Shown here: positions 5,742 to 7,807 of the stretch, in pieces | Layout: the number at the start of each line of letters is the position of its first letter | Position numbering within the stretch: position 1 is the first letter of the stretch | Source: Sulfuricella sp. | GTDB taxonomy: Bacteria > Pseudomonadota > Gammaproteobacteria > Burkholderiales > Sulfuricellaceae | Length of the DNA: 12,688 nt | Reading direction: 5' to 3' | Assembly: GCA_019911785.1 (NCBI GenBank) | Contig: JAIOJM010000204.1 | Location: 1-12,688 of the forward strand | The notes under the pieces: model-generated | Told to the model about the DNA's origin: nothing | What the model saw: the letters and a program-made list of their open reading frames with translations, nothing else | Database searches by the model: none | Translations under genes and position numbers: made by a program

Positions 5742-5793
5742 AGTCGAGCTTTCCAACAGAATATGCCATAACCGGCCGTTCATTATTTTCAAT

Positions 5794-5812
5794 TGTTCAC
5801 GCAACGTGAACA
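5794..5812. promoter_or_regulatory. Operator 1 of the AbiE-like operon (perfect palindrome)
   Basis: TGTTCACG-CAA-CGTGAACA: two perfect 8-base arms with a 3-base spacer. An offset pair AATTGT (5791-5796) and ACAATT (5812-5817) surrounds it. It shares its core with operator 2 and lies about 24 bases upstream of the -35 box. AbiEi antitoxins are known to bind inverted repeats before their operon, so AbiEi is the natural candidate binder. Confidence 0.8.
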
Positions 5813-5835
5813 CAATTCTTTAATGAACAATCCTA

Positions 5836-5863
5836 TTGACACCGCTGTTCACTGTGCGGTAAT
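5836..5863 (+). promoter_or_regulatory. Sigma70-type promoter of the toxin-antitoxin operon
   Basis: A perfect -35 TTGACA (5836-5841), a 16-base spacer and a GGTAAT -10 (5858-5863) preceded by an extended TGC (5855-5857). Transcription would start near 5870, inside operator 2. A TGAACA half-site (5824-5829) and a TGTTCAC half-site (5846-5852) flank the -35. The predicted leader of about 30 bases is AT-rich and has no Shine-Dalgarno sequence. Confidence 0.6.
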
Positions 5864-5882
5864 GTTCACGTAACGTGAACAT
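5862..5882. promoter_or_regulatory. Operator 2 of the AbiE-like operon (perfect palindrome)
   Basis: Perfect 9-base arms ATGTTCACG and CGTGAACAT around a TAA spacer. The palindrome begins within the -10 box and covers the predicted transcription start, so a bound protein would block RNA polymerase. Its centre is 69 bases from that of operator 1. A further TGAACA at 5893-5898 abuts the start codon. Confidence 0.85.
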
Positions 5883-5898
5883 ATTAAAATATTGAACA

Positions 5899-6969
5899 AT
5901 GAACCCACTTAACGACAAAGAACAGACAATCTTGCTGCGTGCCTTGGAAGCCTTGCATAGAACAGCAGGCATTACCGGCCACGTGATTGAAAGGGAAACG
6001 ACAATTCCCCAAGGCTTTCGTGCGGATGCTCGCGTTGAAGTCGAGGCAAATGGACAGTGCTATGGCTATATGGCCGAAATCAAGCGTGTCGATCGATTCG
6101 CCACCCTGGGGGACATCAAGAATCAGTGTGGCCAGTATGGTGATCAACTGCTTCTGGTAGCACCCCGCGTCACAACTGAAATCGCTGAAAAATGCCGCGA
6201 ACTTGATCTGCAATTCATAGACACGGTCGGCAATGCCTATCTGCGCCGCCCCGGGTTGTTTGTTCTGGTAAAAGGACAGCGACCTGTTAAAGGTGAAGAT
6301 TTTCAGCTGGCAGAGCAAGAGGGCAAACGTGCAGGAACAGCCACCAACTTACGTGTCTTTTTCGCACTGCTATGCAAACCAGAACTGCTCAATGCACCTT
6401 ACCGCGATATCAATCAGGCCGCCGGTGTCGCGCTGGGCGCGGTTGGATGGGTATTCTTTGACCTGAATGCCAGAGGCTACATCACCGGCGGGAAAGGCAA
6501 GGGTGACAGAGTGCTGCTTGAGCGCCAGAGACTCGTGCAAGAGTGGGTCACAAACTACCCGATAAAGCTGCGTCCGAAACTCAACCCCAGAAGGTTCCGC
6601 GCTCCGACAACCGACTGGTGGAAAGAAGTGGATATCACTAAATATGGTGCCCAATGGGGGGCAGAAGTCGCAGCGGAGAAATTGACAGGCTACTTGCGCC
6701 CGCACGTACTCACCATTTATCTTCATAAGGAGCAAGGACAGAAAAATTTGACCCGAATGGTCGCCGAGCACAAGCTGCGGGCAGACTTGCAAGGCGACAT
6801 AGAAATTCTCGATGCATTCTGGGATTTTGAAGATGAAAAACCAATGCCGGAAACAGTGCCGCCATTGCTGACTTATGCTGACTTGATAGCTACGCTGGAT
6901 CCTCGCAACCTGGAAGCTGCAAAGCTGATTCATGAACGATACATCGCGACCACTGACGCCGAAGCCTGA
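5899..6969 (+). CDS. AbiEi-family antitoxin with nuclease-like N-terminal region and winged helix
   Basis: A 356-residue protein of the family annotated as type IV toxin-antitoxin AbiEi-like antitoxin: expected to repress its own operon and counter the following nucleotidyltransferase toxin. Three parts are visible. Residues 1-125 resemble a PD-(D/E)XK fold: Asp43 (RADARVEVEANG), a GYMAEIKRV strand with Glu60-x-Lys62, then QCGQYGDQLLLVAP and FIDTVGNAYL. Residues ~150-197 look like a winged helix (LRVFFALLCKPELL..YRDINQAAGVALGAVGWVFFDL). Residues 200-356 are the family C-terminal domain (YGAQWGAEVAAEKLTGYL, DPRNLEAAKLIHERY). ATG 5899 is the only sensible start but has no Shine-Dalgarno. Its 3' end overlaps the toxin gene by 38 bases. 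GC is lower than in flanking genes, suggesting transfer. Whether the nuclease-like motif is active is unknown. Confidence 0.8.
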   Translation: MNPLNDKEQTILLRALEALHRTAGITGHVIERETTIPQGFRADARVEVEANGQCYGYMAEIKRVDRFATLGDIKNQCGQYGDQLLLVAPRVTTEIAEKCRELDLQFIDTVGNAYLRRPGLFVLVKGQRPVKGEDFQLAEQEGKRAGTATNLRVFFALLCKPELLNAPYRDINQAAGVALGAVGWVFFDLNARGYITGGKGKGDRVLLERQRLVQEWVTNYPIKLRPKLNPRRFRAPTTDWWKEVDITKYGAQWGAEVAAEKLTGYLRPHVLTIYLHKEQGQKNLTRMVAEHKLRADLQGDIEILDAFWDFEDEKPMPETVPPLLTYADLIATLDPRNLEAAKLIHERYIATTDAEA

Positions 6970-7807
6970 TCGCCCTGTTGAGCCGATAGCCTTGTTGGTG
7001 ATACATGAAATCCACAAAGCTGCAAAAGAGCTTGGATTCCCGGTATTCCTGGTTGGGGCGATGGCTCGAATTATCCTTCTCGAAAATATTTTTGGATTGA
7101 AGGCCGGACGCGCCACTACCGATGTGGATTTTGCATTTGCCTTGGACAACTGGGAACAATACAGGACACTCAAAACATTCCTGGTTGCAAATTCAAGTTT
7201 TGAGGAATCAGGGCATGTTGCCCATCGGCTGCTTGTCCATCTGCCGGGCCTGGAGCATAAGTTCAAAGTGGATTTGATTCCGTTCGGTGGAATTGAAACA
7301 AGCCCAGACACCATTGCCTGGCCGCCAGACATGAGTGTCATGATGAACGTTGCAGGTTATAGCGACGCATTGGCCGCCGCAGTTACAGTTGAAGTGGGTC
7401 CTGGAATAAACATCGCGGTTGCCTCGCTGCCTGGAATTGCGATCCTGAAACTATTCGCCTGGGCCGATCGGGGGCGGGAAAACCCGAAGGACGCAATTGA
7501 CCTTGTTTCGCTGTTGCGTGGCTATCACGAAGCCGGCAACGAGAGCAGGATTTATGAGGAAGAAGGCGCGCTTGCAGCACTTGAAACAGCCGGGTATGAC
7601 ATAGAGCTTGCCGGAGCCTGGTTGCTTGGAAATGACGCTGCTGCAATGGTTTCCGCACAAACGAGCAGAGACCTTATAGAGCTGTTAACAGGAACAAAAA
7701 GGAGTCGATTGGTAGAAGATACGGCAAGAGCGATGCTTGGCAAGGATAATGCACTGGAATATTCGCATCGCTTATTGGAACAATTCACCAACGGTTTTAT
7801 CGCCTGA
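6932..7807 (+). CDS. AbiEii-family nucleotidyltransferase toxin
   Basis: A 291-residue protein with the nucleotidyltransferase signature of AbiEii/AbiGii toxins (PF08843-type): VFLVGAMAR at residues 38-46 (the G-[GS]-like loop, here Gly42-Ala43), TDVDFAFA with Asp64 and Asp66 as metal ligands, and a third acidic residue Asp114 in FKVDLIPFGGIE. Then come VASLPGIAILKLFAW (Lys173) and the ENPKDAIDL segment typical of this subfamily. Related toxins transfer nucleotides to RNA or other targets and halt growth; the target here is unknown. ATG 6932 lies inside the antitoxin gene (38-base overlap, different frame) with no clear ribosome site, implying translation coupled to the antitoxin. GC is among the lowest in the window. 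The Gly-Ala variant of the usual Gly-Gly/Ser loop occurs in the family as I recall it. Confidence 0.82.
   Translation: MNDTSRPLTPKPDRPVEPIALLVIHEIHKAAKELGFPVFLVGAMARIILLENIFGLKAGRATTDVDFAFALDNWEQYRTLKTFLVANSSFEESGHVAHRLLVHLPGLEHKFKVDLIPFGGIETSPDTIAWPPDMSVMMNVAGYSDALAAAVTVEVGPGINIAVASLPGIAILKLFAWADRGRENPKDAIDLVSLLRGYHEAGNESRIYEEEGALAALETAGYDIELAGAWLLGNDAAAMVSAQTSRDLIELLTGTKRSRLVEDTARAMLGKDNALEYSHRLLEQFTNGFIA

Follow-up and report, generated by a model that had tools for sequence, protein, structure and literature searches.

A COG4861-COG4849 AbiE-type operon in Sulfuricella with a nuclease-like antitoxin domain and an operator pattern that recurs in viral sequences

An AbiE-type operon with a four-half-site operator

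The 12,688-nt stretch of Sulfuricella sp. contig JAIOJM010000204.1 analyzed here (hereafter, the window) encodes a pair of overlapping genes, abiEi and abiEii, with the features of an AbiE-type (type IV) toxin-antitoxin (TA) operon. We consider it likely that the pair is a COG4861-COG4849 TA operon comprised of a self-repressing antitoxin (AbiEi), a toxin (AbiEii), and, within the antitoxin, an ancestral PD-(D/E)XK module. As read from sequence, the gene pair is ordinary in kind and of a type that was predicted previously; what is new is the grammar of the operator and the presence of that pattern in phages.

The antitoxin gene, abiEi (COG4861/AbiEi_2), lies at 5899..6969 on the + strand and encodes 356 aa. 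It is followed on the same strand by abiEii (6932..7807; 291 aa), a nucleotidyltransferase toxin gene of family PF08843, and by open reading frame (ORF) coordinates the two share 38 bases (6932..6969, + strand). Pfam places AbiEi_2 (PF09952) at antitoxin residues 206-350 (E 2.4e-37; 128.9 bits against a cut-off of 21) and AbiEii in the toxin (E 4.1e-10; 40.4 bits against a cut-off of 22.5), and T62, D64, D66, D114, K173, and D190 of the toxin are invariant in 14/14 aligned toxins. The antitoxin gene comes first and overlaps the toxin gene, an order that is identical in relatives with both genes. A first-pass annotation of this DNA had called an AbiE-like TA pair with a 38-base overlap; the ORFs, the Pfam domains, and the invariant toxin residues bear out that call. 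Its winged helix in the antitoxin is likewise found in the structural model and in Protein Data Bank (PDB) rows, and its AbiEi-type C-terminus corresponds to the AbiEi_2 match.

From the observed genes, domains, conserved sites, and operator, we infer a mechanism in which the winged helices of AbiEi would bind two 53-bp operators of four half-sites each, as several units, and bound AbiEi would repress its own promoter. A shortage of AbiEi would then allow the toxin to be made, and the C-terminal domain (CTD) of AbiEi would neutralize it. AbiEii would act as a nucleotidyltransferase whose RNA target is probably tRNA, by analogy with its MenT relatives: the toxin profile matches MenT1 among PDB sequences (E 4.9e-6), and MenT nucleotidyltransferases modify tRNA according to PMC11375011. 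The N-terminal domain would be an ancestral PD-(D/E)XK nuclease module, its D-ExK motif intact here and in most aligned relatives.

The operator at abiE loci

The operator follows the pattern TGTWCA-N11-TGTWCA-N7-TGWACA-N11-TGWACA, in which four half-sites span 53 bp. Two matches occur in the window, both upstream of abiEi, and none in 200 shuffles. The distal copy (5777..5829, + strand) has 1 mismatch of 24; the proximal copy (5846..5898, + strand) has 0 mismatches, and its last base adjoins the start codon. Each is held in one of two 57-base direct repeats that are 70% alike.

Directly before the proximal operator, TTGACA (5836..5841, + strand) is a candidate -35 element, a weak one because the consensus promoter scan did not report it; by eye, TTGAC stands at the equivalent place in loci L001-L004. 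That scan found no + strand promoter at the operator. It did report a promoter-like match on the minus strand and a terminator-like match that is the inner palindrome of the distal operator; both were near chance and were set aside.

For the window and L001-L020, 21 loci in all, a spacing of 17 fits best in 18 loci when spacings of 14-20 are compared. Seventeen of these 18 have 0-4 mismatches, and the site of L012, clipped in that comparison, has 1 mismatch when whole. No operator was found in the spacing comparison at L015, L017, and L019, where AbiEi_2 also stands without an adjacent toxin; these genes are candidate domesticated regulators.

Beyond these loci, a class sample of 274 genomes contains the operator at ≤2 mismatches in 12 genomes at 14 places, 13 of which adjoin AbiEi_2, and 11 of the 16 genomes with AbiEi_2 have an operator at this threshold. 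A phylum sample (299 genomes, overlapping the class sample) adds one further genome with an operator, and reversed-letter controls gave 0 in both samples. The 14th place in the class sample and the additional phylum site are solitary copies with no AbiEi_2 nearby (L031:1501-1553 in G127 and L166:1501-1553 in G504, respectively). Of 31 matching plasmid records, 10 were examined, and 5 of the 10 loci have the operator at ≤2 mismatches (Spirosoma, Fibrella, Hymenobacter, Synechococcus, and Diaphorobacter). In much of the COG4861 branch, the operator appears to be distinctive and recognizable by pattern alone, so that its binding mode and regulon become directly testable.

The operator does not, in turn, mark a working toxin gene. 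This rule was dropped because the operator of L001 has no toxin gene with it and the gene pair of L022 has no operator. At the former, a Nitrosospira locus (L001:2767-3834), AbiEi_2 and the operator occur with no toxin found alongside, and type I restriction-modification-like genes lie downstream by ORF reading. Elsewhere, the toxin frame is split (L003:5016-5879) or truncated (L004:5034-5738), and the antitoxin frame is open in both loci.

Operator-like sites in viral sequences

The exact pattern is present in at least 120 viral stretches of IMG/VR, against 0, 3, and 13 for controls with reversed letters, N10 spacers, and an N8 center, respectively. Eighty of the exact matches were listed and fetched (L043-L122). 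Fifty of these were searched as whole records of up to 321,624 bases, and all 50 contain one site each at ≤3 mismatches. Sites are mostly intergenic: 68 of 79 have less than half their length inside an ORF of ≥100 aa and 11 have half or more, in sequences where such ORFs make up 76% of bases. At the unspecified positions, phage and abiE sites share base preferences (r 0.77, or 0.80 without the center; 33 phage and 19 abiE non-redundant sites), a correlation reached by 0 of 20,000 column shuffles. The excess over controls, the single copy per record, the placement largely outside ORFs, and the shared preferences all favor a reading in which a phage copy of the operator titrates AbiEi off the abiE promoter as the phage replicates, or serves as a phage decoy. 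We hold that reading as possible, at well under even odds.

Twelve of the 13 N8-center control matches have a core that begins TGTTCACG and resemble a real variant; among all 13 of these viral stretches (L170-L182), 11 carry the core TGTTCACGAATACGTGAACA in either orientation. Among named phages, a viral 53-mer query found Tenacibaculum phage pT24, with an exact site (LC168164.1:138768-138820) in a large gap between divergent gene blocks, and Maribacter phage Panino, with 5 mismatches and the fourth half-site missing. Searches of named phages with the window's own 53-mer and, by tblastn, with the antitoxin found none.

Some of the viral sites may have a cis function of their own, which tells against titration or a decoy. 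Besides the divergent-gene site of pT24, 14 of the 80 are no more than 9 bases from a tRNA gene (one overlaps it by a base), with several near-copies among the 14. Rfam, run on 11 of the 80 loci, returned tRNA genes only; in 6 of the 8 tRNA-adjacent loci in that run, the site takes up the whole spacer between one tRNA gene and the next. A role of the viral 53-mer as an RNA hairpin was rejected: over 33 sites, complementarity of the N11 arms is not clearly higher within a site (3.67 of 11 positions) than between sites (3.34, sd 0.26), and 12% of shuffles reach it. Complementarity of the three central pairs is higher within a viral site (1.58 vs 0.99).

Judged by pattern, AbiEi is the leading candidate binder of the phage sites, because the motif in the searched genomes is nearly confined to AbiEi genes (13 of 15 sites). 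A phage-encoded relative of the AbiEi winged helix was rejected as binder, being found in 1 of 50 whole records, many of them fragments, and there as AbiEi itself; AbiEi_2 is absent from 79 of the 80 fetched stretches. Titration or a decoy is further weakened in that 49 of the 50 records lack such a relative, the link from phage to AbiE host is hypothetical, and the binder may be another host or phage protein. The operator was, moreover, searched outside the genomes of Bacteroidota, which are likely hosts of some site-bearing phages. The broader proposal, that many kinds of phage carry one AbiEi operator, in some cases within a tRNA array, and that AbiEi recognizes it, seems to us rather unlikely. 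It would take one of two forms, either a phage decoy or host sensing, in which replicating phage DNA would be read through the TA operator, the toxin released, and DNA perhaps cut. For phage sensing by type IV TA systems, or for a counter-measure by the phage, the single operator copy in unrelated phage sequences suggests a definite hypothesis.

The nuclease-like domain of AbiEi

Models and conservation delimit a PD-(D/E)XK-like domain at residues 1-125 of the antitoxin (5899..6273, + strand; D43, E60, and K62). Two AlphaFold2 models show an alpha-beta-beta-beta-alpha-beta core whose element order agrees with PD-(D/E)XK; in the model, D43 is within strand 41-50, E60 within strand 53-61, and K62 directly past the strand end. 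The predicted fold of the domain resembles those of XisH, NucS/EndoMS, AF1548, and PaqCI (N-terminal part), and most of the 50 rows of the structural search are what we take, by titles and superfamily membership, to be PD-(D/E)XK proteins. These rows, and the motif residues in their expected strands, make it very improbable that the domain has no nuclease fold and that the likeness reflects a common alpha/beta arrangement. The fold that the first-pass annotation had proposed is supported by structure prediction and fold search, and its view of this antitoxin as unusual among AbiEi proteins is not, because each of the 37 rows in alignment A1 has the N-terminal region and the antitoxin belongs to a large family, with 1804 proteins at E≤1e-3. 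The region is shortened in some A1 rows (e.g., L013 and L018). At the level of modeled fold, a nuclease-like domain is well supported as a family trait.

Two candidate lines of evidence were discarded. The best PDB match of the N-terminal profile (E 0.066) was taken as chance, and the precomputed NucS_C label of P0139, an AbiEi_2 protein, is a misleading annotation and no evidence of a nuclease because it sits on the winged helix (residues 155-218). With the antitoxin and the toxin as single proteins, a PDB sequence search gave no match at E≤1.

The putative active site was followed in three sets of homologs. In a close set of 118 rows (window antitoxin included; 3 of 121 proteins dropped as shorter), 111 rows keep D43, 112 keep E60, and 108 keep K62; in a divergent set of 137 rows (one short protein dropped), the counts are 123, 121, and 124, with all three residues jointly in 110. 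Thinning to <80% identity and ≥300 aa kept 87 of 255 rows, again with the window antitoxin, of which 67 have D-E-K and 2 have D-D-K, giving D-(D/E)xK in 69. Among 130 N-terminal columns of these 87 antitoxins, D43 ranks 11th, K62 13th, and E60 15th in conservation. All five residues named in the first-pass annotation (Asp43, Glu60, Lys62, Gln79, and Tyr80) stand at those numbers, and its expectation that the first three are conserved among homologs holds. Gln79-Tyr80 is unsupported as part of the motif because the two rank 78th and 96th; the RecB-like subgroup has a conserved Gln and Tyr after (D/E)xK, and that feature is not seen here.

Possible roles of the domain

We put at about even odds that the N-terminal domain is able, under some condition, to cleave or nick DNA, in an accessory role that toxin control does not require. 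The principal alternative, to which we give slightly less than an even chance, is that the nuclease fold was kept for binding DNA or a partner (for example, by bridging the four half-sites) with a dead or dying site, leaving a plain antitoxin-toxin pair. D, E, and K change repeatedly while D108 and N112 are invariant (87/87) and G111 is kept in 86/87, and L012, L013, L016, and L018 have partly lost the motif and retain toxin and operator. That alternative is harder to reconcile with the way D43, E60, and K62 stand out among variable neighbors, all three together in the 67 of 87 rows given above, and with a tree built on the protein minus its N-terminal domain. There, rows with a broken motif are scattered and do not group into old clades, suggesting that lost forms are short-lived; sequencing errors may account for a few. 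The motif state clusters no better than shuffled labels do, 194 of 500 shuffles being as low. Our reading of these sequences is that the intact motif is ancestral and often lost, although some changes may be gains, and sequencing errors in metagenome proteins may explain some broken tips. That the domain would act on DNA of phages or DNA bearing the operator, and that it would support binding only, we regard as about equally probable.

Two enzymatic arms, a nuclease plus a nucleotidyltransferase, are possible from the sequence, as the first-pass annotation had suggested. In a two-arm defense, infection would free AbiEi, the nuclease would cut phage DNA, and AbiEii would block translation. The motif is intact in most homologs, the PADLOC candidate PDC-M21B matches the toxin (E 1.4e-6), and the antitoxin has restriction or modification genes close by in L001 and L020 (type I-like, by ORF reading only), L027 (a restriction endonuclease), and L187 (an N-6 DNA methylase). 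We nonetheless think such a defense unlikely: loss of the site is tolerated in the four loci with a partly lost motif, and both the defense role and the substrate are hypothetical.

Several results weigh against the self-repressing operon with an ancestral nuclease module. At the N-terminal domain, the best Z is 7.5, a range that unmatched models reach too; Foldseek returned no E < 1e-3 and Pfam no nuclease match in the window antitoxin. On the tree, the motif changes between intact and broken at least 16 times, and well-supported branches force 13 of these changes. Between CTD and toxin, hhalign detects no sequence similarity. The operator is missing at ≤4 mismatches from L022, despite its antitoxin and toxin, and from 5 of the 10 plasmid loci (L025, L027, L028, L183, and L187; hosts Cupriavidus, Vibrio (two), Arthrobacter, and Robbsia). 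In the phylum sample, 0 of 2 AbiEi_2 genomes have it at ≤2 mismatches, and the sole operator genome is without AbiEi_2.

Remaining domains and neighborhood

The antitoxin continues with a winged helix-turn-helix (residues 145-228; 6331..6582, + strand) and a CTD of nucleotidyltransferase-like fold (residues ~229-354; 6583..6960, + strand), which by eye has T-I-Y at the place of the catalytic DxD. Relatedness of the CTD and the toxin is argued by modeled fold alone: homology to its own toxin at the sequence level was rejected by hhalign with 16 vs 14 rows, and again in a larger comparison (≤255 vs ≤129 rows before filtering). The best PDB match of the CTD profile (E 0.48) was taken as chance. 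NCBIfam has no name for either protein.

In the genome collection, four relatives at 65-87% identity lie on Nitrosospira, Sulfuritalea, Nitrosomonadales, and Rhodocyclales contigs. Neighboring genes in the window are housekeeping-like, with an isochorismatase-family protein and a nicotinate phosphoribosyltransferase upstream and a SufBD-core protein, an ABC-ATPase, a beta-lactamase-fold protein, and an RNA 3'-phosphate cyclase downstream; 3 of the 10 scanned neighbor genes have no family match.

Relation to known systems

Literature searches returned no title or abstract opening that describes COG4861 proteins with a nuclease domain or phages with this operator, and a term search found no mention of COG4861 in PMC1913061 and PMC2701414. 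COG4861-COG4849 pairs were reported as highly associated by Dy et al. 2014 (PMC3985639). In section 20 of that paper, these AbiE pairs are like the present one in gene order, domains, and a predicted regulator before a nucleotidyltransferase; its account there of COG4861-COG4849 makes no mention of a nuclease-like N-terminal domain or a four-half-site operator. As described in the same source, the Streptococcus agalactiae AbiEi/AbiEii system (COG5340-COG2253) differs from ours in having a two-domain AbiEi without the N-terminal nuclease-like domain and in its operator palindrome, TGTTGCTTTTA-N27-TAAAAGCAACA.

The titles of the proteins whose folds resemble that predicted for residues 1-125 (XisH, NucS/EndoMS, AF1548, and PaqCI in its N-terminal part) point to repair or restriction enzymes, to an excision-control factor, or to an unknown function, and none of them names an antitoxin. 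Passages of PMC7319586 and PMC3968373 concern two proteins of M. tuberculosis. Rv2827c (COG5340) is described there as two-domain, unlike the antitoxin here, and its promoter has two sets of inverted repeats, as here, a likeness by description only. Rv0837c is listed as COG4861, the same group as the Sulfuricella antitoxin, a correspondence by listing and not by sequence.
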